This document shows, piece after piece, positions 2,441 to 23,525 of a stretch of DNA of 64,000 nt; the first letter of the stretch is position 1; each line of letters opens with the position of its first letter. This DNA comes from Sphingobacterium sp. BN32 (lineage in GTDB: Bacteria; Bacteroidota; Bacteroidia; Sphingobacteriales; Sphingobacteriaceae): positions 2,790,001 through 2,854,000 of the forward strand of contig NZ_CP129963.1 in the NCBI RefSeq assembly GCF_030503615.1. The letters are read 5' to 3'. The position numbers and the translations under genes are program-made. Below the pieces are notes generated by a model. That model was not told the origin of the DNA. It searched no databases and saw nothing but the letters and a program-made list of their open reading frames with translations.

Positions 2441-2686
2441 ATTAAAGTTTCTACTTAAATATGTTCCAAGTAACTTAAAGACTACATTTGATACGAACGA
2501 TCAAAAAAACGAATTCTTTTATACTATTTTTGATGACAATGGGATTTATCAATGGTTTTTGTGAAATAGCAATCCGTTAGAGAATTCGATAAATTATCTT
2601 TTAGAAAAATAATACTATTCTTTCTCACGATTAGAATTAGAAAGACATAAAATATTATCTTAAGACGCTCATTTAAGTCATTGAAC

Positions 2687-3427
2687 ATGATACCTAAAAA
2701 AATACACTATTGTTGGTTTGGTAAGGGTGAAAAATCAAAACTAATTAATAAATGTATAGAATCTTGGAAAAAATTCCTTCCCGAGTATGAGATTAAAGAA
2801 TGGAACGAATCAAATTTTGACTTAGAAGAATTCAGTTATGCGAAACAAGCATATGAAAATAGAAAGTTCGCATTTGTATCTGATGTCGTGCGTTTATATG
2901 CCTTAAAAAGTGAAGGTGGAATTTACTTAGATACAGATGTCGAGTTTATTAAACCCTTAACTGAAGATATACTCTCTCAAATTGCATTTTCAGGTTTTGA
3001 GGACAATAATAACGTTACGACTGGAATAATGGGAAGTGTGAAAAATTCTCAATGGATAAGCGACCTTCTGGAAGGTTATTACCAACGTAGTTTCGTTTCT
3101 GAAAATGGCGAAATTGATACTACAACTAATGTATTTTTCACGACTGAATTGATGAAGCAAATAGATGGTTTCACTTTGAATAACACATTTCAGATCATTC
3201 CAAATTATTGCACCTTATATCCTAGCGATTATTTCTGTCCGAAAAGCTGGGAAACATTAGAGATCAATTTGACGGATAACACGTACTGTATTCATCATTT
3301 TGCAGGATCCTGGAAGCCTGAACCCGTGTATAGCTTTGGATATAAAATCGCAAATGCATTGTTAGGGAGAAGAAACGCAAAAATAGCTTTCGATAAATAT
3401 CAAAATTTTAAAAAAATATTCAGGTAA
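2687..3427 (+). CDS. Glycosyltransferase with DXD motif (GT32-like sugar transferase)
   Basis: Small cytoplasmic sugar transferase of the glycosyltransferase-sugar-binding-region type (capsule or OCH1-like). It probably adds a nucleotide-sugar residue to a surface glycan. The N-terminus MIPKKIHYCWFG is characteristic of the family. SDVVRLYAL (about 65-73) and YLDTDVEF with the metal-binding DTD at about 82-84 form the donor site. At 246 residues it is full length for the family. I take the ATG at 2687 rather than the TTG two codons upstream because it gives the conserved start. No other glycan gene lies beside it: it sits alone between the topoisomerase gene and a convergent operon. The preceding 246 nt are AT-rich with no element I can name. 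Acceptor and donor sugars cannot be told from sequence. Confidence 0.8.
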   Translation: MIPKKIHYCWFGKGEKSKLINKCIESWKKFLPEYEIKEWNESNFDLEEFSYAKQAYENRKFAFVSDVVRLYALKSEGGIYLDTDVEFIKPLTEDILSQIAFSGFEDNNNVTTGIMGSVKNSQWISDLLEGYYQRSFVSENGEIDTTTNVFFTTELMKQIDGFTLNNTFQIIPNYCTLYPSDYFCPKSWETLEINLTDNTYCIHHFAGSWKPEPVYSFGYKIANALLGRRNAKIAFDKYQNFKKIFR

Positions 3428-3520: not shown

Positions 3521-4651
3521 TTATTCCCACCAGAATAATTGATTAAAGCCCGACCTCTTCGTCCACTTTAAAGATTTATAATAACGTGAATAGTTGTATT
3601 GGTGTTGATCTGGAATATAACAGGATAAACCGGAAAAGCGCTTTAACGGAAAACCCAGAAAATGACTGGTATAGATTTTAAACAGAACGACTTTGTTAAT
3701 AGCTTCCTCCAGTTTTTTAGCATTTTCAGAGCTCAAATGTCGTTGTCCGAAATCCAGGAAGTCAAAGGCTGCGATTGGCGAAGTTCGATCTAAATCCAAT
3801 CGCTGAATTCCATCGCGTCGAACCCTTTCCACATTCATCTCAGAGATCAAACTCCTTGTTGTTTCTGCTAACATTTCCAATTTTTTCATGTCAATAAGAG
3901 AAAATGTTGCCGAGCGCAAGATTCCATCCTTTTCGTTATAATATTCATATGTTGATCGAGCTACGTCCATGAGTCCCGATAGTATGTCGGGGTCAAACAA
4001 CCCATTCAAGACCTGGTGGTAGGGCATACCGGTATTGATAATCTCCGTTGGAGATGCCAACACGAACGGAGTTATATCCTTTAGTTCATATAGTACTTCT
4101 ACAGATGCCATCGAACAAGCGTCAAAAACAAGGAAGTCCAAATTTTGTGGGAGAGCAGCTCTCAGCGCTTTGATATCCATTGTCTTCCCGTCATCATCAC
4201 CAAAAGATCTCGTTTTTTGTTTCGCTGTTCCCGGCAACCAATTGGAGGCATGCGACCAAAGCACCAGTCCGTAAGACTTAGCTGGTGCAAGGTTCTGCAT
4301 ATCCTCCATCACCATTTTCATGATTGTTGGATCGGAAGAGTCATGGTCAGGATAGCTTTTCAGAACCGCACTCCTTATCTCTCTGGAATCGTCAAAACTA
4401 ATGCGATAGATGCGAGGAGATTGACCGAATATTTTTGCATACACAACTAACGAACCGTCGATGTTTCGAATGCCTTCCTCCATCTGATTGATGTTATCAT
4501 AAGCATTCGACGCAAGGTTATTATTGGCCGCCATGTAAAGCATAACAGTACGTTCAGCTAATATTTTATGTGGTTCCTTTTTACAGGAAATCAATACCGT
4601 GAACAGCAATAATGCAAAGAACCGAAACAACCAAATGTTAAATATGCGCAT
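3521..4651 (-). CDS. Clostripain-family (C11) cysteine peptidase, lipoprotein
   Basis: Predicted surface or periplasmic lipoprotein (signal peptide with lipobox VLISC, Cys23) followed by a C11 caspase-like peptidase fold. The catalytic pair is visible as LWSHAS (His134) and VFDACSMAS (Cys179), each after a hydrophobic strand as in clostripain. C11 enzymes usually cleave after Arg or Lys. A TTG at 4672 overlaps the upstream stop codon, but the ATG at 4651 gives a normal-length signal peptide, so I use that. It is the last gene of the six-gene minus-strand operon starting at 12931 and follows the EEP nuclease gene closely. Its place in a nuclease/receptor operon suggests processing of surface proteins or of nucleoprotein, but that is inference. 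Confidence 0.78.
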   Translation of the reverse strand: MRIFNIWLFRFFALLLFTVLISCKKEPHKILAERTVMLYMAANNNLASNAYDNINQMEEGIRNIDGSLVVYAKIFGQSPRIYRISFDDSREIRSAVLKSYPDHDSSDPTIMKMVMEDMQNLAPAKSYGLVLWSHASNWLPGTAKQKTRSFGDDDGKTMDIKALRAALPQNLDFLVFDACSMASVEVLYELKDITPFVLASPTEIINTGMPYHQVLNGLFDPDILSGLMDVARSTYEYYNEKDGILRSATFSLIDMKKLEMLAETTRSLISEMNVERVRRDGIQRLDLDRTSPIAAFDFLDFGQRHLSSENAKKLEEAINKVVLFKIYTSHFLGFPLKRFSGLSCYIPDQHQYNYSRYYKSLKWTKRSGFNQLFWWE

Positions 4652-4668
4652 ACTGAACAGTTTAAACG

Positions 4669-5712
4669 TCAATTTATAATTTCCTTAATTAGGTAAAGAA
4701 TAACAGGAAAATGGTCGGAGTAGCCGTTTTGAAACATATTACCTGAAAACGTCCTGAATGGATAGCCCTTATAGCGACCTTCCTTACTGATTAAAAAATC
4801 AGGATTAAAGATCTCCGACTTCCAAAACCTCAACTTCCCTCTATCTGCATTGAGCAAGGGTGATGAGATGATCAATTGATCAAACAAATTCCATTTACCC
4901 AAATATCCTAAAGTCCCTATGCCTCTTTGATAGAAGCCGTACATAGTATTGAATAGCCCGCCCTCGATTACATCCTGTTTTTTCACTCGAGCTCCCAATT
5001 CTTTCGTCAAACTCTTATCTACTGGGTCATCATTGAAATCACCCATGATGATGATCTTAGCATCTGGACTTATACGCTGCAACGAATCTACACTGGATTT
5101 TAAAATAGTGGCAGCATGCCCTCTAAGTTTCCATGAGTCTGCTGTAAACCGAGATGGCCAATGGTTCACATAGACATAGATTGTCTCTTCCGACAGTCTT
5201 CCTTTCACAAAGAGTATATCCCTAGTTACATAAGTAGCTTTTTCAGGCATCTTGAAAGGAATTGCTCTAGACTCTAACAGCTCGAACTGTCTGGCATCAT
5301 AGAGCATCGCCACATCAATCCCCCTACGATCTGGAGAATCAAAATGTACAATTTGATAGTTATTTTCACGAATCCCTGGGTCAGCAACTAGATCTTGTAA
5401 AACCCTCTTATTTTCGATTTCACATACTCCTATAAGAGCTGGTCCTGACGGACTATATTGTTTGCCTAGTTGAGATAACACATGCCCTAACCTTCGTATT
5501 TTCTTGGCATACTTTTCTTCCGTCCATTGCAATGGCCCCATGGGTGTAAATTCAGCGTCATTCCCAGACGTGTCTGCAAAGGCATCAAAAAGATTCTCCA
5601 AATTATAAAAAGCGAGAGGGAAAACTTGGAACTGCTTCTTCTGGGCAAAGGCAGAAGTTACCAGCTGGACATAAAGCAATAAAAACAGCTTGACAATAAA
5701 TAATCGCTTCAT
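4669..5712 (-). CDS. Secreted endonuclease/exonuclease/phosphatase (EEP) family protein
   Basis: Member of the DNase I-like EEP superfamily, metal-dependent phosphodiesterases. A signal peptide ends near residue 23 (SAFAQ), so the enzyme is exported. Active-site motifs are in the expected order: FYNLENLFDA (35-44), GVCEIEN with Glu98, VNHWPSR with His184, MGDFNDDP with Asp225 and Asn227, and YSDHFPV near the C-terminus. At 347 residues it is complete. Its start codon overlaps the stop of the DUF5689 gene (TGATG at 5710-5714), so the two are translationally coupled. Pairing of an EEP protein with a DUF5689 lipoprotein and a TonB receptor is, from memory, recurrent in Bacteroidota. The substrate could be DNA, RNA or a phosphoester such as a phospholipid head group; sequence alone does not decide. 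Confidence 0.85.
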   Translation of the reverse strand: MKRLFIVKLFLLLYVQLVTSAFAQKKQFQVFPLAFYNLENLFDAFADTSGNDAEFTPMGPLQWTEEKYAKKIRRLGHVLSQLGKQYSPSGPALIGVCEIENKRVLQDLVADPGIRENNYQIVHFDSPDRRGIDVAMLYDARQFELLESRAIPFKMPEKATYVTRDILFVKGRLSEETIYVYVNHWPSRFTADSWKLRGHAATILKSSVDSLQRISPDAKIIIMGDFNDDPVDKSLTKELGARVKKQDVIEGGLFNTMYGFYQRGIGTLGYLGKWNLFDQLIISSPLLNADRGKLRFWKSEIFNPDFLISKEGRYKGYPFRTFSGNMFQNGYSDHFPVILYLIKEIIN

Positions 5713-7073
5713 CAGTGAATTCTTTTACCGCTTAAGACAATAATTTCTTCTTTTTTCTCTATAGCACTCCCGCTTAGTTCAATATTATCTAATCGGAAAC
5801 CAATCTTGTTCGATTGCGAAGACGAAATGAATTCAATAATAAGATTAGAAGATTGCGGCAAGTTTTTCAATTCAATCGTATAATATTTGCCATTGTCTCC
5901 CGCCGCATTAGAAATAACTTTACTCGGAACCACCATCATATTGCCGTTTACTCGAATCTGAATTTGATCAAGATTTGCCGTAGATCCCGCATCAAATAGA
6001 TTCGCTGTCAAATCATATTTAAGATTGACAACACCCTTATTAAGGCTGTTGATGCCAGAAATCTTAATGATCGCATCCCTATTTGCCGGTAACCAGATAT
6101 GTGCGCCAGTTCCACTTGAGATGCTCCGAATATCAGCGTTTTTACTTGCATCCTCATATTTGACTGGAGCTTTCATATCGAAGTCCGTAAAATCATTAAT
6201 CTTTGGTCTGTTGCCCGAGCCGTAACGCTGGTTACCAAACGTCTCCTTAAAGAATATTGCTGAATTCGGCGCGACAGTCTCTTCTTCCGATCCGTCAAAA
6301 TCACCGATATCTGATTTCGTTCTTAAGACCAATTGCCAAGCACCATTAAAACGCCCCAATACACCAAACAATTTCCCTTTTCCTTTCGGTAATGGTTCTC
6401 GTGAGAAATCCGCGTAATTACTCGTCCGAACATCGAGAGTTTTCCCAGACGCATCTTTGATACTCTCATTTGTTGTACGATCGCCGGTAATAAACGCACT
6501 CTTTCCACCATTGACAAAGCGGATATCGTTAAATTCAACAAGCTGATGTAGATATTCTTCTGACATATCTTGAATTGCGATTTTCTTAGCCTCGACATTC
6601 TTCATGTTGGGCCAGGAATTAGCGAAGGCACGTGTTTGGAAATCGTCCCAACGAATACGGTTTGCTTGTGTGCTGGCCATTCCTAGCTGCAATTCATCGC
6701 CGTATTTTAACATAAATAAGCCTTTCAAATGCAGGAAAATCTCTTGCCCTACTTGATACGTTCCGTAGATTGCGTTCTGATCGATGCCAATATTCAATCC
6801 CGCGGTCTCATCTTGGATATAAATCTGTTTATAGATATTGCCAGATTCATCATTTCCTACGACGATACCTCTAATGATGAACTCATCCGTAACTTCCGTC
6901 GGGGCAGTAATATTCTTAAACTGTGTCTTTAGCTGTTTAATACTGATATTGTTCAGCTTTCCAGTGTATTTAGGTTCTGTTAAAGGTGGCGGAGAATAAT
7001 CACGCTCACAAGCAGCAATACACAAAGCCACTAACAGCAATAATAGGATATGTATCTTCTTCATCATTTTCAT
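5712..7073 (-). CDS. DUF5689 lipoprotein with C-terminal beta-sandwich module
   Basis: Predicted outer-membrane lipoprotein (lipobox CIAAC, Cys22). Residues about 35-260 match my recollection of the DUF5689 domain, an OB-fold-like unit (EFIIRGIVVGNDESGNIYKQ, YIQDETAGLNIGID). OB folds commonly bind nucleic acid, but I cannot show binding here. Residues about 275-440 form a separate beta-rich module (FFKETFGNQ, HIWLPANR, FRLDNIELSG) that is clearly related to the C-terminus of the fimbrillin-like protein two genes upstream. Only 3 nt separate it from the receptor gene and it overlaps the EEP gene, so the three are probably co-translated. It likely acts as the surface binding partner of the receptor, analogous to SusD in position but not in sequence. 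Confidence 0.8.
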   Translation of the reverse strand: MKMMKKIHILLLLLVALCIAACERDYSPPPLTEPKYTGKLNNISIKQLKTQFKNITAPTEVTDEFIIRGIVVGNDESGNIYKQIYIQDETAGLNIGIDQNAIYGTYQVGQEIFLHLKGLFMLKYGDELQLGMASTQANRIRWDDFQTRAFANSWPNMKNVEAKKIAIQDMSEEYLHQLVEFNDIRFVNGGKSAFITGDRTTNESIKDASGKTLDVRTSNYADFSREPLPKGKGKLFGVLGRFNGAWQLVLRTKSDIGDFDGSEEETVAPNSAIFFKETFGNQRYGSGNRPKINDFTDFDMKAPVKYEDASKNADIRSISSGTGAHIWLPANRDAIIKISGINSLNKGVVNLKYDLTANLFDAGSTANLDQIQIRVNGNMMVVPSKVISNAAGDNGKYYTIELKNLPQSSNLIIEFISSSQSNKIGFRLDNIELSGSAIEKKEEIIVLSGKRIH

Positions 7074-7076
7074 CTT

Positions 7077-9830
7077 TTAGAATCTATAACTCGTGTTCAA
7101 AAACACATTTAAACCCTGCATGTAAAAGTATCTTGGCGCGAATTGATTTGGCCACTTGGTGCTTAGTCTTCCCTGTTCAAACCCTCCAGTACGAATGCTT
7201 TTATCATTCATAAAATTGACGATAGAGAAATTAACGCTTAACGACTTTCTATTCTTCAGGTAGAGCAACTTGCCAATGGACCCATCAAAGGTAATAGCGT
7301 CCGTTAAGCGCTCTTGCGCACTTAGTTGTAGGTATGCCTTATAATTCTGTGGATCGTTAGGATTTATGTTCGCATAATTGGAAGCAATACGGCGTAGGGG
7401 TGCCGCCGACAAATACATCCTACCTGCATAATTACCGCTAATCTCGAAAAACCAAAAATCATAAAAATAACGTGCCGCCAATATTCCAGCAAACTGTGGC
7501 GTCCCTGACACATACACATTTTTTAAATACACCTTTTCCTGCACATTCACCAATTTTCCATTTTCCGAATTCATAGTCCCCATGGGATTGCCAGAATAAT
7601 AATATTCTCCCAAATTCAAAATCGCATCAATGCTCCAATGTCGGTCGGGTGTAAATGTTGCAGCGCCTTCTACGCCACGGTGTACCTTCGATACGCCCGA
7701 TAACTGGTGGAAGACAAAGGTTCGCTCCGAATCATGGTAGTATTGCGTTCGCTCAACTTGGTCGTTAAAATTTGTCTGGAAAAAACTAATTCGTCCGGCT
7801 ATTTTCGGAGTCGAGAAGATATAATTTAAATCACTTTGAAAAATTCGAGCGCTTTTCAGGTTTAATGCGGTTTGATCGGTCGACCGGGACATAATATACG
7901 CTCGGTCTGGAACGGGAGCCTCTGTGAGCAAGCCCAGATTCATCGATAGAAAATGGCGGCCGGAAAACTTGTAATTTATCCCCCCTTTTAAAGCGAAATC
8001 AAAAAACTGATGCTTCCGACCCTTACCATAAGAAGAATTGGGGAATCGTCCATTTTTCATCCTTCCGCTTCGTCGAAAATCGGTATACGAGAACTTACTT
8101 CCATAATAAAAATCAAAAGACTTTTTTTTATGCTGATTATTAAACCAGATACTCGCCGATTGGATACCGATCTCAAAGTCATATCCAAAGATGTCACCAA
8201 CATAAACCTTACGATCTGGGAATACTAAATCATTCTGCTTTCGCGTTTCGAAATCTGAATACTCTTTCTCGCGTTCGGCAAACTTGTCATAGTCCGTCAC
8301 AAAGTCTGCTCCCAAAAGATCATTAACAGTTTTATACTGAAATGAAGTCGATTTTCTAGCCTCCACTCCCGCGGTAATAGACATATTATTATCGTAAAGT
8401 TTATGAAAATTAGCGTTCATGGTACCCTCTAATAGATCAAAATGCCTACGTTCGACCATATACAGGGCTTCTCCGCCATATTTTCTCCGATGTTCCGGGT
8501 TTCTGTTCTGTGCATAGAGATCATCCCAATCAATTTGTGTGGTTCGCGAATCCCCGGAAGTCCACCTATTCGTCAAACCACTAATATCTAAGGAAGCACG
8601 CGTACTGTCCAACAGTTGGTAGGACGGTAGTTTCCGGTAATAATCAGGACGGGGATCCATCGCGTCATACCAGTTCAAGGCTGAATTGCTATAACGGCCA
8701 TAATGCAGCATCGCCCCACTGCTCAAGGAAGTTCGATCATCCACACGCCACACATGTGATAAAATTACAGTGGGATCATAAGCTTTTACAATTCTTGAAT
8801 TCCGGACTTTCCCATTTTGATAACCCCAATTCGGGTTGTAGAGATTATTCTTTGTTAGATCGTAGGCTTCCTGAAATGACGAACCTTGTTGCCCTCGGAC
8901 GACCGGTGAGCCATAGGTGACAAGAGCGATGGAATGCCTTCCTTCATCCCATTGTCTTTCGACAGAGAGCGCATAAGAGACATTTTCGTAAGACGTTCCT
9001 TCAATATATCCACGGTCGGAAAATCGTCCACCCAAAGCGCCGACAAAAGCCCAGCCCCGATCAGACATCCCTGTCGCATAGCTTAAAATACTACGCGCAT
9101 AATAATTCCTGTTTGTATAAGACAGTGTAACCCTAGCACCGGGAGCATAAGATCCTGCCCGCATATTGATATTTTCAGACCCACCAATAGATCCGAAGGT
9201 GAAAGTGCCAGCATTATTGTAATTGACCACATCACCGTTACGCGTTAGGTCATTCAATGCACCAATGGATGCGTAATTAAAAACTCGACGGTATTGGTCA
9301 TTCGCCAATACCCCATTGATAAAAGTCTGCTCGTAGATCGGGTCATAACCGCGAACACGATATCGAAATGGAGATAATTTAAAACCAACCTTATTTAGGT
9401 AAATGTCATTTGATAAAATAACGGAGGACTGAACCTCCTGATTAGAGATATCCGCTTCGCCAAGCACATCTTCATCAATCACCCCTAACAGCATTTGATA
9501 ATCCACTTTCGGTTCAGGAACAAGTTCGATTGTATCCAAGCGCAAAGTCTCGCCCTCCTGAATAATCAAGTTCATTTGAAAAGGCCGATAACCCGCCGCT
9601 CGGATGCTGAGTTGTTCCGATCCTGCATCTAAGTTGACAAACAGGAACTGTCCCTGCTCATTACTGATTGTTGATTGCTGATTATTCGTTAGGTCGATCT
9701 GTATCCCAACTAATGGTGCTTGCGTTCCGGCTTCCAAAACAACAGCACGGAGTTGTGCTTTCTCTTGAGCAATAAGTAGTATGCTGCTTTCAAAGAGAAA
9801 GAATATGATAATAAGTAGCGTTCTACACAT
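7077..9830 (-). CDS. TonB-dependent outer-membrane receptor with N-terminal carboxypeptidase-regulatory-like domain
   Basis: Outer-membrane beta-barrel transporter of about 917 residues driven by TonB. After a signal peptide (ends near SILLIAQE) comes a carboxypeptidase-regulatory-like domain (LRAVVLEAGTQAPLVGIQID). A plug domain follows (FRYRVRGYDPIYEQTFINGV), then a long barrel rich in alternating aromatic strands and ending in aromatic YRF, the usual BamA signal. It lacks the SusC plug signature (GVVLVTTK type), so it is a non-SusC receptor. I use the ATG at 9830; a TTG 18 nt upstream is also in frame. Its neighbours (two secreted nucleases, DUF5689 and fimbrillin lipoproteins) suggest import of oligonucleotides, nucleosides or phosphate-containing fragments. 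The substrate is inferred only from context. Confidence 0.85.
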   Translation of the reverse strand: MCRTLLIIIFFLFESSILLIAQEKAQLRAVVLEAGTQAPLVGIQIDLTNNQQSTISNEQGQFLFVNLDAGSEQLSIRAAGYRPFQMNLIIQEGETLRLDTIELVPEPKVDYQMLLGVIDEDVLGEADISNQEVQSSVILSNDIYLNKVGFKLSPFRYRVRGYDPIYEQTFINGVLANDQYRRVFNYASIGALNDLTRNGDVVNYNNAGTFTFGSIGGSENINMRAGSYAPGARVTLSYTNRNYYARSILSYATGMSDRGWAFVGALGGRFSDRGYIEGTSYENVSYALSVERQWDEGRHSIALVTYGSPVVRGQQGSSFQEAYDLTKNNLYNPNWGYQNGKVRNSRIVKAYDPTVILSHVWRVDDRTSLSSGAMLHYGRYSNSALNWYDAMDPRPDYYRKLPSYQLLDSTRASLDISGLTNRWTSGDSRTTQIDWDDLYAQNRNPEHRRKYGGEALYMVERRHFDLLEGTMNANFHKLYDNNMSITAGVEARKSTSFQYKTVNDLLGADFVTDYDKFAEREKEYSDFETRKQNDLVFPDRKVYVGDIFGYDFEIGIQSASIWFNNQHKKKSFDFYYGSKFSYTDFRRSGRMKNGRFPNSSYGKGRKHQFFDFALKGGINYKFSGRHFLSMNLGLLTEAPVPDRAYIMSRSTDQTALNLKSARIFQSDLNYIFSTPKIAGRISFFQTNFNDQVERTQYYHDSERTFVFHQLSGVSKVHRGVEGAATFTPDRHWSIDAILNLGEYYYSGNPMGTMNSENGKLVNVQEKVYLKNVYVSGTPQFAGILAARYFYDFWFFEISGNYAGRMYLSAAPLRRIASNYANINPNDPQNYKAYLQLSAQERLTDAITFDGSIGKLLYLKNRKSLSVNFSIVNFMNDKSIRTGGFEQGRLSTKWPNQFAPRYFYMQGLNVFLNTSYRF

Positions 9831-9913
9831 ATGCCATTTATTGAACAAATAAAAACTGAAAGAATGAGGCTAGAGAATTAGCCTCACTCATAGAATCAAA
9901 CCTGGTTTTTAAC

Positions 9914-11326
9914 CTATTTTGTTCCGAATATTTTGATGTTATCGATGCGATATCCAGTTTTATTCTCTGCAGCTTGGGCTGAAACCTCTACGGTTAAGTT
10001 TGCAGCGCTTGCAATACCATCGATTGCAACTTCACTAAACTGATTTTGCCCACCTAAAGTTCCACTTGTTGGATAGTTAACCCCATTGATTTTGATCTTC
10101 AGAGCAGAGATATCAGCATTATTTCCATTAGCAGCTTGCTCATAGGTCATTCTCAACTTCGTATAGCCCGCAGCATTGATATTTTCAATCTTCATACCCG
10201 TTGTTCTATTGGCTGGAAACCAAACGTGTGTATCCATAGTTGATGTTTGACGAATATCAGCCCAACTGTCCGTGTACAAATCACTATACTTAACCGTTTT
10301 ATTTTTGAAGTCTGTATAGGTTGCAAATCTCCCACGTGGATTTGCTCTAGGTCCTTGTTCACCAAAATCTTCTTCAAAAAACATCTGTTCAACGCCAACC
10401 GGATCGATAGGTTTAATAGGCTCCTTATCTTTATCTATAACATGTGAACTACCTGGAACGATTATCCAGTCCGTTATGGTTGTCTCACCTATCGCAACAG
10501 CTTTCGTTATTCCTGCTTCCGTACGTAGTTGAATACTGTGGCTGTACTTCATTCCAGATTCCAAAGTCATGTTAGCTGGCAACTTCCATGTAAAGGTATT
10601 TCCGCCCACCGTAAAAACAACATTTTTACTTCCATACGCGCCAGGAATCAATATCGCTTCAACTAAAGTACCAGTAGCACCTGTAGAAACTTTTGCAAGA
10701 ATATTTGCCGGACTATTCGAAGGTGAGAAACTTCCATTCGATAAATCCAATGTCGTTTGTGAGAATATATCCTGATACGCTACGGTCAATCCAGCTAAAC
10801 TCGAAACTCCTGGCCCTGCAGTAATGTTCAACTCCACTTTTGATAGCATATGCTTGAAATCAAGTTTCGCTATACCAGAATCTTTGTTATAGCCTGTCGC
10901 ATTATTAGAATATAAAAGATCGATGGCAGACTGATTGCTTTGATTCGAAATATTGACTTCAGCAATACCATTTGAAAGTTGTTCAACATATGGATAATAA
11001 GCAATAAAGTCTACTGCTCCTTCATTTGGGTAATTGATTATATCGCTTCCTGTTGCGCTGAAATTACTATTCCCACTCGTGACATACTTCTTATTTCCCG
11101 CAATTACATTGCTAAAACCTGTACCCTGCTTCATAAACACACCTATCGCATCATCCTTGTCCCAAGAATTTCCGGACACGCGAGTGGTACTATTTCCTGC
11201 TATGGTAGATGTAAATTGTACTCCATTTTCCGCCGTCTCTTCTAGATCACGGTAGGCGTCGTTCTTACACGAGCTCCCTAGCAATAAGGCCAAGAAAGCA
11301 ACGCTCAATAATTTTTTTGTATTCAT
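9914..11326 (-). CDS. Fimbrillin-like lipoprotein with C-terminal beta-sandwich module
   Basis: Lipoprotein (lipobox GSSC, Cys20) with a fimbrillin/Mfa-type N-terminal half, about residues 30-300: STTRVSGNSWDKDDAIGVFM, VDFIAYYPY, and LDFKHMLSKVEL, the conserved strand pattern of Bacteroidetes pilus proteins. The C-terminal part (about 315-470: FFEEDFGEQGPR, HVWFPANRT, YRIDNIKIFG) is not pilin but the same module as in the DUF5689 protein of this operon. The N-terminal half is related to that of the next upstream gene, which carries a nuclease instead. No minor-fimbria or anchor genes are nearby, so a true pilus role is doubtful; a surface adhesin or ligand-binding role within this operon fits better. 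Confidence 0.8.
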   Translation of the reverse strand: MNTKKLLSVAFLALLLGSSCKNDAYRDLEETAENGVQFTSTIAGNSTTRVSGNSWDKDDAIGVFMKQGTGFSNVIAGNKKYVTSGNSNFSATGSDIINYPNEGAVDFIAYYPYVEQLSNGIAEVNISNQSNQSAIDLLYSNNATGYNKDSGIAKLDFKHMLSKVELNITAGPGVSSLAGLTVAYQDIFSQTTLDLSNGSFSPSNSPANILAKVSTGATGTLVEAILIPGAYGSKNVVFTVGGNTFTWKLPANMTLESGMKYSHSIQLRTEAGITKAVAIGETTITDWIIVPGSSHVIDKDKEPIKPIDPVGVEQMFFEEDFGEQGPRANPRGRFATYTDFKNKTVKYSDLYTDSWADIRQTSTMDTHVWFPANRTTGMKIENINAAGYTKLRMTYEQAANGNNADISALKIKINGVNYPTSGTLGGQNQFSEVAIDGIASAANLTVEVSAQAAENKTGYRIDNIKIFGTK

Positions 11327-11362
11327 TGAATTAGTATTATGTGTAAAAAAAAAAGTAAAAAT

Positions 11363-12931
11363 TTATCGCCAGATTTGATTGTTTATTGTCCGTTTGATCG
11401 AGGGATCTAAGCCTGGAAAAAATGTCAAGCCGGTTAACTCCTCGAGGTCCGCCACACTTAAGCGGTGGCTCATAAAGTTATTGTCCGTGGGGAAGTATTT
11501 ATTATCCATCTTGAATCCGATGGAATAGTAATTATCCCCTCTTTTGACCGCCAAAGCCTTATAATAGTACTTCGGCCGTGCTATTCTGTTCTGCCCCCTA
11601 TCCATAACATAGTCAATGGTTTGATCTTCTTTTGTTTGTACCACAGCGCCCGTCACTACATACATCGTATCAACAGCAGCTTGAAAGGTCCAATTGCGTA
11701 TCTTCTCCTCCAAATGCATCCAAAGTCCCTGATTCAAGAAAGATTCCTGAGCAGTCATATTCGTATAATAAAAGGTCGTGGCATTTTCAGCGAAGTTCTT
11801 CGTGCGATCAGCGCTGGGGAGTTGATGCCCACGATCCACACCAGGTATACCAAAACCGCTGGAAAGGAAAGGTTGTGTATTTTGAGGAAAAAGCGGGTCA
11901 TAGCTCCAAGCATTTGTGCGCCGCTGAGATCCTATATAGTCTCGGCTCAAAGGATAAGCTACCCAATGCGCCAGTCTATTCGTTTTATCATACAACATGG
12001 AGAAGTTTCTTTTTGAACCATCCGGGGTCATACGGAATTTATACTCCAGGTTTGCGGAGGATTCAATGCGTGGAACTTCTAGATAACTGGTCTTCACCTC
12101 GGGTAGCACCTCGCCTCCACGTAACGAAAGCTCATATTGATAGCGGTTGCCCGCCAAAAGCCGCAGGTTCATTTCGCCAATATTCCAGGTATAGGTGCCG
12201 CCCTTCGCATCCTGAACAACCAATTGTGATGTTCGAGGTAATTGCTCGGGAAATAGCATCCACTCCACTGTCGTCTGTTGCTTGCTATTTTTCGAAACAT
12301 ACCCCTCAATATCCTTAAGCACATGATACAGACTAAGTTCTTTTGTTGGCAGGTGATAGGTCGCCTTCGTCGGAACCTGCTTCAAAGTTGCTTTGAAACC
12401 GGAACTTTCCGTATTGCTAAGCGTAATTTGAAGCTTAACCATTATACGCTCGAAAACCAGTGAAATAGGGCTCTGTTGAAATACATGAGCAGAATCGCTC
12501 TGTCCATGTAAAAAGTCAAGCGCAGATTGATCTTGCTGATCTTCTATATCTAATAACCGCGTAACGACTTGCCCGCGTTGAAAAGGATGAAAAGCTAAAA
12601 AACGAACCTCTTTATCTTCCGGAAATTGAAAGGATTCATTTAGGTCGGCAGGACGCAGATTCCCAGCTCTAGAAGCAATAAACTTTTTATTAAATGCCTG
12701 CGGAAGAATGCTATTGATACTAAACTGATCCGACTCATACATATAGATACTCAATGAGTCTTCAAGATCCCAAATATTTCCAGACACCCTCGTGATGTTT
12801 TCGCCCGAGATCCTCGTACTGAACAAAACAGAATTAATCTGCTTTATCTCTGTAGGAACGTTCAATTCTTTCCGACAGGATTGCGTTATAGTTAAAATTA
12901 ATATTAAACAAATGATACCTACTCTTTTCAT
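11363..12931 (-). CDS. Fimbrillin-like domain fused to DNA/RNA non-specific endonuclease (lipoprotein)
   Basis: First gene of the operon. Lipobox ITQSC (Cys19) predicts membrane anchoring. Residues about 30-275 are a fimbrillin-like domain (ENITRVSGNIWDLEDSLSIY, VRFLAFHPF) homologous to the downstream gene. Residues about 295-520 are a NUC-type (Serratia/NucA, beta-beta-alpha-metal) nuclease: the catalytic motif DRGHQLPSADR has His369, and NMTAQ (391-395) is followed by Asn400 and Glu409, the expected metal Asn and helix Glu. All key residues are present, so it should cut DNA and RNA outside the inner membrane. The 252 nt in front separate it from msrA, which ends in its own terminator, so the operon promoter should lie there. 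I found no clear TTTG/TAnnTTTG match in it. Confidence 0.85.
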   Translation of the reverse strand: MKRVGIICLILILTITQSCRKELNVPTEIKQINSVLFSTRISGENITRVSGNIWDLEDSLSIYMYESDQFSINSILPQAFNKKFIASRAGNLRPADLNESFQFPEDKEVRFLAFHPFQRGQVVTRLLDIEDQQDQSALDFLHGQSDSAHVFQQSPISLVFERIMVKLQITLSNTESSGFKATLKQVPTKATYHLPTKELSLYHVLKDIEGYVSKNSKQQTTVEWMLFPEQLPRTSQLVVQDAKGGTYTWNIGEMNLRLLAGNRYQYELSLRGGEVLPEVKTSYLEVPRIESSANLEYKFRMTPDGSKRNFSMLYDKTNRLAHWVAYPLSRDYIGSQRRTNAWSYDPLFPQNTQPFLSSGFGIPGVDRGHQLPSADRTKNFAENATTFYYTNMTAQESFLNQGLWMHLEEKIRNWTFQAAVDTMYVVTGAVVQTKEDQTIDYVMDRGQNRIARPKYYYKALAVKRGDNYYSIGFKMDNKYFPTDNNFMSHRLSVADLEELTGLTFFPGLDPSIKRTINNQIWR

Positions 12932-17329: not shown

Positions 17330-20300
17330 ATGAAACATCAATTACTCACTTCACTGTGCGTAATGGCCTGTAGTAGCCTACAAGTCGTTAATGCACAACA
17401 GATTGCAGTAGCCGGTAAAGTTTCAGACCAAAACGGCGCTCCGATAACGGGCGTCACAGTTACTGTAAAAGGAACTTCCATTAGTACCTCTACGAACGAA
17501 AATGGTCTCTTTACTTTAAATGCGGATCACAACGCTACATTAATTATTTCTGCAATCGGTTATCAACGCCAAGAAATCCCTTTGGCGGGCAGAAAAACAA
17601 TCAACATCAATTTGAGTAGCGCCGATGAGGCTATAGACGAAGTAATTGTAGTCGCTTATGGTACGGCCAAGAAAAGTGCATTCACCGGATCAGCAACACA
17701 GGTTGACTTTGGAAAAGAAGCCGGCGATGTGCCGGCAAACTCTTTTGAACAAGCATTGGTCGGAAAGCTACCTGGTGTACAGATCAATACCACAACGGGA
17801 CAGGCGGGAGCAACATCAAGCATTCAGGTTCGTGGTATCGGATCGATGAATGCCGGGACAGAACCTTTGTATGTAGTCGACGGTATTCCGGCACATAGTG
17901 GAAACACTGGCCAAATGCAGTCCGCACTAGCAGGTACATCCAACAACATTATGGCAACCATCAACCCGAACGATATTGAATCCATTACGGTTTTAAAAGA
18001 CGCTGCGGCTTCATCACTATATGGATCGCGTGCAGCAAATGGCGTCATTTTGATTACCACCAAATCTGGAAAAGCTGGAAAACCGAAAATCGACTTCCGT
18101 ACATCTTTGGCAACCACGCCAGACTGGGCGGTAGAAAATTATAAACCGGGTAGTGTACAGGATCAAATCCAATATTTCTACCAGATTTTCCACGACTACA
18201 GAACCTCCAACGGCAAAACAGAGGCCGAGGCAAATAAATATGCTTTAGACCGCATGAATACCCGTTTTGGAATACATGGATATAGCTTTTCCAGTGAAGG
18301 CACCGGTCTATATGATAAAATCATTATTACAGGAAAGACCGACGGCGTGGAGAACAGAGATGGTAAATACTTCGACTGGAACGATGCTTTATTCCGCACA
18401 GGGAGACATCAATCCAACGATCTCTCTTTTTCGGGGGCAAACGAAAAAACAAGATATTACTCTTCGTTAAACTATACGAAAGAATTAGGGAGAGCAATTA
18501 CCAACGAGTTCGAGCGGATCAGCGGGCGGGTCAATATTACTCAAAAGCTCCACGATATCGTTGAATTTGGTGCTAACATCAATATAACACACAACAATAA
18601 AGAGGGATATAACGATACCCGAAATACGGGAACAAACTATTTCTATCTGGCGAACAACTTAATGTTCCCTTTTTATTGGCCAACCGATTATAAGACAGGA
18701 AAGGAATACAACACCCGGTATAATTCCTTAGGATACAACCCATTATTCTATGATCAACAATGGGAAAACAATTCCAAAACGTTTCGTGTAATCGCTTCGC
18801 CTTCATTAACGGTAAACATCTTGCCGGAATTAACAGGAAAGACAATCTTCTCGTATGATAATGCCGAGGTGAAAGATCATTTATACTACAGCCCGCTTCA
18901 TTATCATCCAACCTACGGAGCGACAGCAAATGGTTCTGTTTTCGAATACAGCACCAACTACCGCATTTTGGTTTCATCATCGACTTTAACCTACGACAAA
19001 AAGTTCAACAACCATAATCTAAACGCCTTGTTGGGTTTTGAAGCACAGAAAAATGAAACAGACTACCAGTATGCGGCAGGTTCAAATCTTCCAAACTCAG
19101 CCTTGCATACTGTAGCTACTGCAGGGGTAAAAGATGCTAATGCCTATTCCTGGGGACACAATATGATGTCTGTGTTCTCTAGACTGGAGTACAACTATTT
19201 AGATACCTACTACCTATCGGGATCTATCCGTCGTGATGGTTCATCGAGGGTGGGACCAAAAGATCGCTGGGCAAACTTCTGGTCTTTGTCGGGAGCGGTG
19301 AACTTGAAAAATACAGCTTTCTTAACCGATGTAGACGAGGTTAACTTCTTGAAACTAAAAGCGTCATATGGAACAAACGGAACCCTTGCAGATTCTAACT
19401 TTGGTTGGCGATCGCTTGCAGGTTTTGGTCTGAACTATATGAGCCAACCTGGAGGATCCATCAACACGATCGCCGATGAAAACTTACGTTGGGAGCAAAA
19501 CTTAAACTTCAACGTAGGAACAGAATTCGGATTGTTCAATAGCCGTCTTAACGGTTCCATCGAATATTTCTCTAGAACTTCCAAAGACCTATTACAAGCC
19601 GTAAATATTTCACTCATTACAGGTTTCTCAAGCACCTTGAGAAACATCGGTAAAATTAACAATAGTGGGGTGGAAATCGCGTTGAGCGGAGATATCATAA
19701 GAAATGATAATTTCCGTTGGTCTGCAAATGCAAACACTTCATTATTGACATCAAAAGTGAAGTCCTTATATGCAGGTCAGGATATCCTTTGGTCTGACCC
19801 GACAGGCGGTGATGCTCGTGTGCCATTTATATACCGTGAAAACGAGTCTGTCTACTCCTTTTATATCAGAGAGTGGGCGGGTGTCGATAAAACGAATGGA
19901 AAACCGGTATGGTATGTTAATGATCCTGAAAACCCAGATGGCGACTTCTTATATAACGGCCGAGGCGCGTCTAATTCAGTATCAAAAGCGAAGCAAATTA
20001 TTGCTGGAAGTCCAATTCCGAAAGCTTACGGTGGTTTTGGAACCGAACTGGAATATAAGGGTATTAGCTTAGGCATGACCTTTACCTACAAAATCGGCGG
20101 CAAGCTATATGATGCAGGTTCTAAGGATGTAGCAGAAGACGGTTACTACTGGGAGCGGATTCGTTCGGAACACGGTATCAAGGAAGTGTGGAGACCTGAC
20201 TATACGGATGCCTTGTTGCCTAAAGTAAGTGGAAATGACCCCGAAGATGGGATTACCAATTCCACTCGCCATCTTTACGATGCTTCATTCTTACGATTAA

Positions 20301-20506
20301 AACAAATTAACCTAGCTTATCGAATTCCTGCATCGATCACCGAAAAAGCAAGAATCAGTAATGCTAGAATCTTTTTCAATGGTACAAATCTATTGACCTT
20401 TTCCAAATTTAAGCTTGCGGATCCCGAAGTTAACCAGTACGGAACGCGTGGATGGGAAACCCCATTCGGGAAGACTTATTCCTTTGGTTTAGAATTTAGT
20501 TTATAA
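17330..20506 (+). CDS. SusC/RagA-family TonB-linked outer-membrane transporter
   Basis: Outer-membrane importer of 1058 residues. Signal peptide (ends VVNAQQ), carboxypeptidase-regulatory-like domain (about 25-105, VAGKVSDQNGAPITGVTV), plug (LYVVDGIP; SLYGSRAANGVILITTKSG) and a 22-strand-type barrel ending in aromatic FSLEFSL. There is no STN domain, so no sigma/anti-sigma signalling is expected. It is coupled to the SusD gene 20 nt downstream. Carried in an operon with a murein endopeptidase and a muropeptide epimerase, it probably imports peptidoglycan peptides rather than a sugar polymer. That substrate is inference from context. Confidence 0.93.
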   Translation: MKHQLLTSLCVMACSSLQVVNAQQIAVAGKVSDQNGAPITGVTVTVKGTSISTSTNENGLFTLNADHNATLIISAIGYQRQEIPLAGRKTININLSSADEAIDEVIVVAYGTAKKSAFTGSATQVDFGKEAGDVPANSFEQALVGKLPGVQINTTTGQAGATSSIQVRGIGSMNAGTEPLYVVDGIPAHSGNTGQMQSALAGTSNNIMATINPNDIESITVLKDAAASSLYGSRAANGVILITTKSGKAGKPKIDFRTSLATTPDWAVENYKPGSVQDQIQYFYQIFHDYRTSNGKTEAEANKYALDRMNTRFGIHGYSFSSEGTGLYDKIIITGKTDGVENRDGKYFDWNDALFRTGRHQSNDLSFSGANEKTRYYSSLNYTKELGRAITNEFERISGRVNITQKLHDIVEFGANINITHNNKEGYNDTRNTGTNYFYLANNLMFPFYWPTDYKTGKEYNTRYNSLGYNPLFYDQQWENNSKTFRVIASPSLTVNILPELTGKTIFSYDNAEVKDHLYYSPLHYHPTYGATANGSVFEYSTNYRILVSSSTLTYDKKFNNHNLNALLGFEAQKNETDYQYAAGSNLPNSALHTVATAGVKDANAYSWGHNMMSVFSRLEYNYLDTYYLSGSIRRDGSSRVGPKDRWANFWSLSGAVNLKNTAFLTDVDEVNFLKLKASYGTNGTLADSNFGWRSLAGFGLNYMSQPGGSINTIADENLRWEQNLNFNVGTEFGLFNSRLNGSIEYFSRTSKDLLQAVNISLITGFSSTLRNIGKINNSGVEIALSGDIIRNDNFRWSANANTSLLTSKVKSLYAGQDILWSDPTGGDARVPFIYRENESVYSFYIREWAGVDKTNGKPVWYVNDPENPDGDFLYNGRGASNSVSKAKQIIAGSPIPKAYGGFGTELEYKGISLGMTFTYKIGGKLYDAGSKDVAEDGYYWERIRSEHGIKEVWRPDYTDALLPKVSGNDPEDGITNSTRHLYDASFLRLKQINLAYRIPASITEKARISNARIFFNGTNLLTFSKFKLADPEVNQYGTRGWETPFGKTYSFGLEFSL

Positions 20507-20526
20507 CCTATCAATTATTATCAATC

Positions 20527-21978
20527 ATGAAAAAGAAATCAATATTCATCATAGCGCTTGCAAGTATATCCCTATTCTCATGCAAGGATTTTCTAGATGT
20601 AAAACCAACAAACTCCATTGACTCCGGAGAAACGATCAGCACGGTAGCAGATGCTAAGGTGATGACAAACGGCTTATTGCGTAGCTTAGTAACAACGAGT
20701 TATTACGGCCGAAACTTTATGATCTATGGAGACGCAAAAGGTGGCGATGCAACGATAGTTTCACAGGGGCGTGGCTTAGACGCGCTGTATGTATTCAATC
20801 ATACCGTGACAAACAATAACTACAGCGGCTTCTGGGCTGAGGGATACAACGCCATATTGCAGGCAAACAATATTATACAAAGTATAGATGATTTAATTGC
20901 CAATGGCTCTACTTTGGATTTCAACACTTATAAGGGGCAAGCATTGACCTTGCGTGCATTAGTTCACTTCGATTTGGTTCGCCTTTACGGTAAAACCTAT
21001 ACAGATGATCCTAATTCGTATGGTGTTCCGATCGTGACCGAAAAATTGAAACACGATGCTAGATTGCTTAGGAATTCCGTATCGGAGGTTTACAAACAAA
21101 TCTTGAAGGATTTAAAAGATGCCGAAGCCTTGTTGCCGAAAACAAAAACAAATGGCTATGTGAATTACTACGCTAATAAAGCTATACAGGCTCGTGTATA
21201 TTTGACGATGGGCGACTTTACAAATGCATTTACTGCGGCAGAAGAAATCATAAATTCCAAAGTATACACCTTATACAGTAATAGCGAGTGGGTCAATTCA
21301 TGGGCAGCTCAGTTCGGCAAGGAATCTATTTTTGAAATTGCCCTTGCTAAAGATCAAGGCGATCTAGGTTCAACCTCATTAGGGTTCTATTACCTCAAAA
21401 GTAAGCAGAACAATGCGCTGGGTAACTTCACCGCCTCAGATTATTATGTAAATCGTTTAGGCGAAGACGCTAATGACGTACGTTGGGGCGTTATGACGGA
21501 AGATGAGTTGAATAGAAAGGCTGCAGTCTACAAATATGTTGGCGGCTTAGCAATGAAAGGTGACGGGAAAGACGTCTTTACTGCAGTAAACATCAAAGTT
21601 ATTCGCTTATCAGAGGTTTATTTAATTGCGGCAGAAGCAGCCTTGAAGAAATCGGCACCTGATGCAGCAAAAGCAGCAACCTATTTAAATGAGATCCGCA
21701 AGCGCTCACCAAGTTTAGCAGCCGCAACAGCCGCAACAGTAACACAAGACATGATCTTGAACGAGAAAAGTAAAGAACTTTACGGCGAAGGACAGCGTTA
21801 TTGGGATATGATTCGTAACAACAAGACAATCACCTTCAATGATGAGCACGTAGGTGTATCGCTTCAACATCGAACGAAAACCATCGACCGCAGCTTCTAC
21901 AAAACAATTCTTCCAATTCCACAGGTTGAAATCGATGCCAACCCGGAACTTGAAAAACAACAAAATCCAGGATATTAA
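20527..21978 (+). CDS. SusD/RagB-family surface lipoprotein
   Basis: Surface lid and substrate-binding partner of the preceding SusC. Lipobox SLFSC (Cys19), then CKDFLDVKPTNS typical of SusD starts. TPR-like helices include the GQALTLRALVHFDLVRLYG block. The C-terminal RagB segment (YLNEIRKRS, LYGEGQRYWDMIR) is complete at 483 residues. A convergent hairpin follows immediately. Same substrate inference as its SusC partner. Confidence 0.92.
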   Translation: MKKKSIFIIALASISLFSCKDFLDVKPTNSIDSGETISTVADAKVMTNGLLRSLVTTSYYGRNFMIYGDAKGGDATIVSQGRGLDALYVFNHTVTNNNYSGFWAEGYNAILQANNIIQSIDDLIANGSTLDFNTYKGQALTLRALVHFDLVRLYGKTYTDDPNSYGVPIVTEKLKHDARLLRNSVSEVYKQILKDLKDAEALLPKTKTNGYVNYYANKAIQARVYLTMGDFTNAFTAAEEIINSKVYTLYSNSEWVNSWAAQFGKESIFEIALAKDQGDLGSTSLGFYYLKSKQNNALGNFTASDYYVNRLGEDANDVRWGVMTEDELNRKAAVYKYVGGLAMKGDGKDVFTAVNIKVIRLSEVYLIAAEAALKKSAPDAAKAATYLNEIRKRSPSLAAATAATVTQDMILNEKSKELYGEGQRYWDMIRNNKTITFNDEHVGVSLQHRTKTIDRSFYKTILPIPQVEIDANPELEKQQNPGY

Positions 21979-21990
21979 TCCCATATATAA

Positions 21991-22019
21991 AAAGAGCTGG
22001 CACATGCCAGCTCTCTTTA
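21991..22019. terminator. Bidirectional terminator between convergent susD and M14 genes
   Basis: Perfect 10-bp GC-rich stem (21993-22002 with 22005-22014) with a 2-nt formal loop (4 nt if the inner pair is open). It has a short T run on the plus side and five T on the minus side. It covers the stop codon of the minus-strand peptidase and serves both convergent operons. Confidence 0.85.
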
Positions 22020-23525
22020 TTGTATCCTATTCTTTAACAATCCTATATCCTTTACGGACTTTGACAAATCAATCAAATAGCCATTTAGGATGGCATATTT
22101 CAGGTTGCCTGCAGAATCGCCTATATAGAAATTAGTCGTTCCACCCAAATCAATAAATGGCGTTGCTGCAAAAGCAGTCTTGCTGAACACTTGAATTGGC
22201 AGGTTATGGAGCATGCCTTCTTCGGTTGGCAAGAGCTTCGCCACCTGCACCCCCATATATCCCTTTTTCAATAGATCATAGGCCAGTTCGGGCGTTAGTT
22301 CCGTTAATGTCGGGAGAGCTTGCGGTGCTATCTTCCCTGCTATAAATCTTAAACCGTCCGCATCCACTTCATCGTATCCATACGATTCTGGCAAGTCGCC
22401 AATATCCTCTACGCGACCCCGTACAAAATAATCTGCTCCTACGGTCGTTTCACCTCTACGAATCGCAATATCGCTCTTTAGCGGAATCGAGTCATTCCCG
22501 AAGGAAAGTCCACGGACAACGATATCATGCATCTGGCTCGCATTGAATGGAATTTCCTCATAACCCTTTGCTTCATAGTTCTCATAAGTACCTTGCGCAA
22601 TCTCCATCAAAGCATTGAGGATAATGATAAAGTTGAGTTTCCGAATCTGTTGTTTTTCCGGATCGCCTTTCAGTCCTCCAGATTCGATTAGTACAGTACT
22701 CGCTCCCCATGACTGAAAGTTATCGCCAAATCCGCGCGGAGTATAGGTATCGTCGTATTTGGCAACCGCATCAGGAACGTACTGCTGCAAAATCTTATTC
22801 ATCCCAACAATAATCTGCATTGCTCCTTCCCGCACATCATTGATTTCTCGTTCCGTATTGTAAGCCGGAGCCAACAACGAAATCGTCACTGGATTCTTGG
22901 TTTCCGGCACATTATAATAAATATTCTGATCATGAAGATTGAATCCATAACGAGGATTAAACTCCTTTGCCCGCGATTTTAACAAAGCTCCCTCTACCGT
23001 TTGACCCGCACGCGCATCTCTATTCAAGTCTATACTTTGCGCATTCCGACGTAAAAAGCGCTCTGCGCCGTCCGGATTGAGCATGGGGATAAAACGAATA
23101 TTTAGATTGTCTTGAAGCAGATTCCGAATGCTATCAAAGCCATCCCCCTTGCCTTCCAAAAAGTTGAAAATATCAAACAGCGCCATGGTCGCTGTCGGCT
23201 CATCGCCGTGCATTTGCGACCAAAGCATTACCTTCTTGTCTCCTTTGCCATAGGCAAGCTCATAAATTGCTCTACCCTCCACAGATTTTCCAATTTGCGA
23301 AATATTAAACAATCCGCTCTTACGATGCACTTGGATTAGTGAATCGACATCTTTGTGTTTAAATCGCCTGTGAAACAGAGCAGATTCCTTGAATGAGGCA
23401 TGCATGGTATTCCATTGGCTGCTATCCACCTGCATTCCCGATTTTACAGTTCGCGTTGAACTGCTGAATGGATTACTACAGGTTGTCGCGGCCAATAGAC
23501 CTAAGGAAACTAAGAATAACTTCAT
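22017..23525 (-). CDS. M14-family zinc carboxypeptidase / murein-peptide amidase candidate
   Basis: Exported metallo-carboxypeptidase. The signal sequence has a Cys at 16, but the lipobox (ATTC) is not canonical. Zinc ligands are visible in MHGDEPT (His106, Glu109) and NLHDQ (His198); NPDGAERF and SIDLNRD form the substrate carboxylate pocket; VLIESGG supplies the catalytic Glu281. After the catalytic domain (about 55-320) a C-terminal extension of about 180 residues contains beta-rich sequence I do not recognise. In E. coli the M14 enzyme MpaA is encoded next to the L-Ala-D/L-Glu epimerase, a pairing echoed here, so a role in trimming murein peptides is likely but not proven. It is the last gene of a minus-strand operon with LD-carboxypeptidase and dihydroorotase. 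Confidence 0.85.
   Translation of the reverse strand: MKLFLVSLGLLAATTCSNPFSSSTRTVKSGMQVDSSQWNTMHASFKESALFHRRFKHKDVDSLIQVHRKSGLFNISQIGKSVEGRAIYELAYGKGDKKVMLWSQMHGDEPTATMALFDIFNFLEGKGDGFDSIRNLLQDNLNIRFIPMLNPDGAERFLRRNAQSIDLNRDARAGQTVEGALLKSRAKEFNPRYGFNLHDQNIYYNVPETKNPVTISLLAPAYNTEREINDVREGAMQIIVGMNKILQQYVPDAVAKYDDTYTPRGFGDNFQSWGASTVLIESGGLKGDPEKQQIRKLNFIIILNALMEIAQGTYENYEAKGYEEIPFNASQMHDIVVRGLSFGNDSIPLKSDIAIRRGETTVGADYFVRGRVEDIGDLPESYGYDEVDADGLRFIAGKIAPQALPTLTELTPELAYDLLKKGYMGVQVAKLLPTEEGMLHNLPIQVFSKTAFAATPFIDLGGTTNFYIGDSAGNLKYAILNGYLIDLSKSVKDIGLLKNRIQ

Follow-up and report, generated by a model that had tools for sequence, protein, structure and literature searches.

A six-gene operon of Sphingobacterium sp. 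BN32, related to transformation genes of Riemerella anatipestifer, as a probable outer-membrane DNA-import system

How DNA passes across the outer membrane of Bacteroidota is an open question, and to our knowledge these bacteria have no recognised uptake route based on a type IV pilus and PilQ. Genetics in a single species, the duck pathogen Riemerella anatipestifer, has named two genes whose role was left unexplained. Natural transformation of R. anatipestifer ATCC 11845 is abolished when either RA0C_RS04915, which codes for a carboxypeptidase-regulatory outer-membrane protein, or RA0C_RS04920, which codes for a DUF5689 protein, is removed by unmarked deletion (Huang et al. 2021, PMC8459023); the EEP neighbour of the pair (RS04910) was neither deleted nor discussed in that work. 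In the same bacterium, transformation is lowered in tonBA and tonBB mutants, although loss of tonBA leaves iron uptake unimpaired (PMC8383284), which is what DNA transport through a TonB-dependent transporter would predict. Flavobacterium johnsoniae has homologues of the pair, yet it is not transformable in the laboratory (PMC8459023). We found no published follow-up on RA0C_RS04915 and RA0C_RS04920 in the literature searched and, with the terms used, no TonB system for the nutritional use of extracellular DNA.

In this work, we have analysed an operon located in a stretch of 64,000 nucleotides of the Sphingobacterium sp. BN32 genome (the window). The initial annotation had described it as one run of six minus-strand genes, and this was confirmed: all six open reading frames are found where it had placed them (3521-12931), with gaps of 36, 65 and 3 bp followed by overlaps of 1 and 4 bp (Table 1). 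A 252-bp gap separates msrA from the first gene, and the downstream neighbour is a convergent glycosyltransferase gene. The nuclease, DUF5689, EEP and C11 families that had been assigned to these genes were recovered with Pfam, and the receptor was recognised from its predicted structure, but there are two fimbrillin-like lipoproteins and not one, as the NUC protein carries a fimbrillin-like domain at its N-terminus. Lipobox cysteines are visible in the sequence, as is a signal peptide on the EEP protein, and a terminator-like hairpin preceding the receptor gene could possibly attenuate expression of the distal genes. The arrangement is not due to chance, because the NUC gene is the only Endonuclease_NS gene in the whole 4.37-Mb genome and because the neighbourhood of TonB-dependent receptor, DUF5689 and EEP genes is conserved.

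Table 1. Features of the six-gene operon in the window
Feature	Coordinates	Strand	Basis
Lipoprotein, fusion of a fimbrillin-like domain and a DNA/RNA non-specific endonuclease (NUC)	11363..12931	-	Pfam Mfa_like_1 5.6e-28 and Endonuclease_NS 3e-44
Fimbrillin-like lipoprotein	9914..11326	-	Pfam Mfa_like_1 9e-51
Terminator-like hairpin between the fimbrillin and receptor genes	9862..9889	-	consensus match only
TonB-dependent transporter (receptor)	7077..9848	-	Pfam CarboxypepD_reg only; predicted structure
DUF5689 lipoprotein, predicted tandem OB fold and C-terminal adhesin-like beta domain	5712..7073	-	Pfam DUF5689 1e-65
Exported EEP nuclease/phosphatase	4669..5712	-	Pfam Exo_endo_phos_3 1.5e-110
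C11 (clostripain-type) peptidase lipoprotein	3521..4672	-	Pfam Peptidase_C11 2e-43

The R. anatipestifer locus reads ComEC, a 145-aa protein, a 542-aa protein, EEP, receptor and DUF5689, which corresponds gene by gene to RS04895-RS04920 and puts ComEC at a distance of three genes from EEP. Both this locus and the window operon have a single-copy CarboxypepD_reg receptor (28% identity between the window receptor and RA0C_RS04915 over 961 aligned columns, HMM score 927 bits, one copy per genome), a DUF5689 lipoprotein directly after it (26% identity to RA0C_RS04920) and an adjacent EEP gene (33% identity to the gene at the position of RA0C_RS04910). They differ in that the Riemerella EEP gene is divergent and not part of the operon, and in that NUC, fimbrillin and C11 are absent there; in addition, the window form and the native form coexist in Elizabethkingia. 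Taken together, the coexistence of both types and the low identity of the receptors mean that their functions may have diverged. The earlier statement that no named system has this gene set holds for the six genes as a whole, but the core pair was already known genetically as transformation genes (PMC8459023).

With Pfam, CarboxypepD_reg alone was found in the receptor, with no match to a plug or barrel domain. Its structural model (pLDDT 88) is that of a complete and ordinary TonB-dependent transporter, which has a plug and is extended at the N-terminus, and its best fold matches in Foldseek are FecA, FhuA and PqqU (FecA TM 0.71 by target). The SusC and RagA models of NCBIfam gave no match to the receptor and no operon protein matched the SusD family in Pfam, so a SusC/SusD assignment was rejected. 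The polysaccharide utilisation loci of the SusC/SusD type resemble the operon in that a TonB-dependent receptor, surface lipoproteins and hydrolases share one transcription unit, but the window operon is without SusD, and its receptor falls outside the SusC models and is nearest in fold to the FecA, FhuA and PqqU transporters. The initial annotation had proposed that the receptor and the lipoproteins take the place of SusC/SusD; what stands of this is surface capture and import of nucleic acids without SusD, while the receptor is not by family an equivalent of SusC.

The DUF5689 protein may provide the link to DNA. Its model (pLDDT 91) contains two five-stranded units in the first 250 residues, and Foldseek matched it to HIN-200 domains (IFI16, p202, p204, p205 and MNDA) and to the OB folds of telomerase Teb1 with E-values of about 1e-5, the TM scores over the whole chain being low (0.35-0.44 by target). 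HIN-200 domains and Teb1 are nucleic-acid-binding tandem OB folds. These matches probably align to the DUF5689 part of the protein, and the resemblance of the predicted domain to DNA-binding tandem OB folds offers a possible explanation of DNA binding at the level of the fold. Carbohydrate-binding and adhesin folds were also among the matches, and the C-terminal part of the protein is similar to gingipain adhesin domains; the C-terminal beta domain of the fimbrillin-like protein is homologous to this same region (31% over 166 aa, 2e-20).

Both nucleases appear to be catalytically equipped. The NUC domain resembles Serratia nuclease and EndoG, catalytic residues included, and retains the DRGH motif of the Serratia enzyme together with the Asn and Glu equivalent to N119 and E127. 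It differs from the other members of the Serratia nuclease, EndoG and pneumococcal EndA family (PF01223) in being a lipoprotein anchored via a fimbrillin-like domain and encoded beside a putative importer. In the EEP protein, the catalytic motifs NLEN, E-x-EN, NHW, GDxND and SDH are all intact. The idea of nucleic-acid capture and import, already put forward from the gene content, is supported by our results: transformation of Riemerella depends on the homologues of the receptor and the DUF5689 protein (PMC8459023), the genes for these two stand between nucleases of two families, and the model of the DUF5689 protein is similar to tandem OB folds that bind DNA. It is very improbable that the operon acts on a phosphodiester or glycan polymer other than nucleic acid (e.g. 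teichoic acid, phospholipid head groups or ADP-ribose), with the EEP protein acting as a phosphodiesterase or phosphatase. Phosphatases do occur among EEP enzymes, and the C-terminal domain of the DUF5689 protein is similar to CBM-like and adhesin folds, but the NUC family is specific for nucleic acids, the homologues are needed for transformation with DNA, and the OB folds match those of DNA-binding proteins.

Our survey of 395 Bacteroidia genomes gave about 90 with a receptor match above 400 bits, other receptors remaining below 270 bits; the family is cleanly separated from other TonB receptors in this sample and is normally present in one copy per genome. The core, that is, the TonB-type receptor followed by the DUF5689 lipoprotein, with an EEP nuclease adjacent, is found in about one quarter of the sampled Bacteroidia. 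The receptor family is present in 231 of 251 good Flavobacteriaceae genomes (92%) and in 139 of 142 good Weeksellaceae genomes (98%), these labels being inferred from the counts per genus and from the members known by name, Riemerella and Elizabethkingia. A DUF5689 gene lies directly 3΄ of the receptor gene in all 23 Sphingobacterium carriers (with a 3-bp gap in the window) and in 59 of the 63 other Bacteroidia loci, and an EEP gene lies no more than four genes from the receptor in 23/23 and 51/63, respectively. The EEP gene is usually divergent outside Sphingobacterium, whereas it comes fifth in operons of the window type. This co-occurrence in the neighbourhood, which the initial annotation had named as a check, speaks in favour of its idea, and the core of receptor, DUF5689 and EEP is ancient in Bacteroidia.

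Two exported nucleases might also serve to remodel extracellular DNA at the surface or in biofilms, or to destroy DNA traps, import being secondary. In the Bacteroidales, the extracellular DNase BT3563 of Bacteroides thetaiotaomicron is required for bile-dependent biofilm, as cited in PMC11078008. In related Bacteroides, the module includes EEP and a pair of NUC genes. BT3563 itself is a candidate for the EEP of this module. We nonetheless consider a remodelling role quite unlikely, as it leaves unexplained why a conserved TonB-dependent transporter stands beside DUF5689 in nearly every locus.

The extended cassette (fimbrillin-NUC, fimbrillin, the core and usually C11) is present in 23 of 94 Sphingobacterium species, namely that of the window and 22 others, and in one carrier the contig stops before the upstream genes; Sphingobacterium tabacisoli, S. 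corticibacter, S. cellulitidis and S. paucimobilis are among the relatives. A NUC/fimbrillin form without C11 occurs in Dysgonomonas, Proteiniphilum, Phocaeicola, Bacteroides finegoldii and Alloprevotella, while in B. faecis and B. acidifaciens the arrangement is different, with two NUC lipoproteins surrounding this core. Elizabethkingia miricola and E. occulta carry the complete six-gene cassette in addition to their native Flavobacteriales module. Because the Sphingobacterium receptors group with Bacteroidales receptors in the tree, and because none of the other sampled genera of the window's family has the receptor in the 395-genome sample, the Sphingobacterium cassette was likely acquired horizontally. 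The NUC, fimbrillin and C11 additions would make up a mobile, degradation-oriented variant of the core, and the C11 peptidase is an accessory of the Sphingobacterium and Elizabethkingia cassette.

The presence of two Mfa_like_1 domains and a C11 peptidase could also point to a fimbria or a proteolysis-related surface assembly in which the nucleases are incidental. The Mfa-type fimbriae (type V pili) share the Mfa_like_1 domain with two operon proteins, but the operon has only two fimbrillin-like genes, one of them fused to the nuclease. Such an assembly is hardly credible, since in most Bacteroidia the core loci lack fimbrillin and C11, and in most cassette carriers NUC is fused to a fimbrillin domain. 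A plasmid-borne mobile element (PLSDB gives only four remote homologues, all typed non-mobilizable), a viral origin (viral contigs contain no relative) and a defence system (no PADLOC match) were rejected. The genome has another DUF5689 gene, which does not represent a further module of this kind: its neighbours code for a different receptor, of SusC-like type, and for a RagB-like lipoprotein, and no match to the window proteins was obtained.

Is the operon then purely the outer-membrane stage of natural transformation, in which NUC would make single strands as EndA does and the receptor would thread DNA to ComEC? The homologous pair is essential for this process in R. anatipestifer (PMC8459023), and the window genome codes for ComEC, for DprA and for an HHH protein with 32% identity to its relative RA0C_RS02645, given which transformation is possible in this species. 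However, when 20 Flavobacteriaceae without the receptor were compared with 20 small genomes with it, the receptor was not associated with DprA (11/20 versus 13/20, p=0.75) or with ComEC (10/20 versus 12/20, p=0.75). Furthermore, neither ComEC nor DprA was found in six reduced flavobacterial genomes with the receptor, whose assemblies are 78-87% complete, and EEP, receptor and DUF5689 are intact in all three of those inspected. The incompleteness of the assemblies could partly account for the missing genes and weakens this result, but does not easily explain it. An obligate natural-transformation module was rejected, as the core does not co-occur with ComEC and DprA in the way that it would demand. 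The cassette is also patchy within the genus, Elizabethkingia has its native module besides, and two hydrolytic nucleases would destroy the donor DNA, so that we find an exclusive role in transformation unlikely. The retention of the core where neither ComEC nor DprA was found argues for a role beyond transformation; on this ground, and given the lack of association, we favour a DNA importer that would have scavenging as its basic role and would be exploited by transformation.

We propose that the operon probably codes for an outer-membrane DNA-import machine, which would serve scavenging and, where ComEC and DprA exist, also transformation; the DNA ligand, the surface location and the import itself are deduced from homology, domains and predicted structures. 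The fimbrillin-NUC and fimbrillin lipoproteins would bind and cut extracellular DNA at the surface, and the DUF5689 protein, by its tandem OB and adhesin-like domains, may retain DNA, as strands or in pieces, at the entrance to the receptor, as its fold and homology suggest. DNA would then cross the outer membrane via the TonB-dependent transporter, a step for which there is genetic support in a relative, and the exported EEP nuclease may trim it. By scavenging, the cell could obtain nucleotides, nitrogen or phosphate from the products, and strands left intact may feed ComEC and DprA where these are present.

Our results place the two Riemerella genes in a module that is widespread in Bacteroidia and includes a nuclease, and they reveal a nuclease-reinforced mobile variant as well as genomes that keep the module although transformation genes were not found in them. 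As a more tentative generalisation, for which we would claim somewhat less than even chances, Bacteroidota may import DNA, for nutrition first and for transformation second, through a TonB-dependent transporter that is dedicated to it and gated by a lipoprotein with tandem OB folds, and of which a nuclease-armed version would have been traded among Bacteroidales, Sphingobacterium and Elizabethkingia. Strains of Sphingobacterium, Bacteroides and Elizabethkingia that can be cultured now allow a direct test of whether DNA is imported as food or for its genes.

The hairpin that lies within the operon (see the table) possibly reduces the expression of the operon's distal genes.

Features within and just downstream of the operon
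Feature	Window position	Location
Terminator-like hairpin	9862-9889	65-bp gap, fimbrillin gene to receptor gene
Glycosyltransferase, DXD-type (Gly_transf_sug)	2681-3427	just downstream of the operon, convergent with it

All six genes of the Sphingobacterium-type cassette are present in three Elizabethkingia genomes (G838, G850 and G822; loci L144, L146 and L147), where the receptor shows 60% identity and the cassette adjoins an mreB-like/rod gene cluster, the native EEP/receptor/DUF5689 module lying about 200 kb away. A window-type receptor (match H1, 48.6% identity) is also encoded at 19923-22610 of NZ_OY725948.1; this record is 27 kb long, is listed as a plasmid of Bacteroides finegoldii and is predicted to be non-mobilizable. 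The Bacteroides loci L217 and L209 (Bacteroides faecis and B. acidifaciens) have two differing NUC lipoproteins flanking the core module; DUF5689 and the downstream NUC of L217 are separated by a multi-domain lipoprotein with DUF6359. The three reduced flavobacterial genomes (G540, G617 and G633; L244-L246) all encode a second TonB receptor, more distantly related and scoring about 270-300 bits, which the EEP gene separates from the core module.

The genome of strain BN32 itself codes for a second DUF5689 lipoprotein (locus L028, 1276000-1295900), whose neighbours are a distinct receptor and a lipoprotein resembling RagB; thus, DUF5689 by itself is no marker of the putative DNA-import module.
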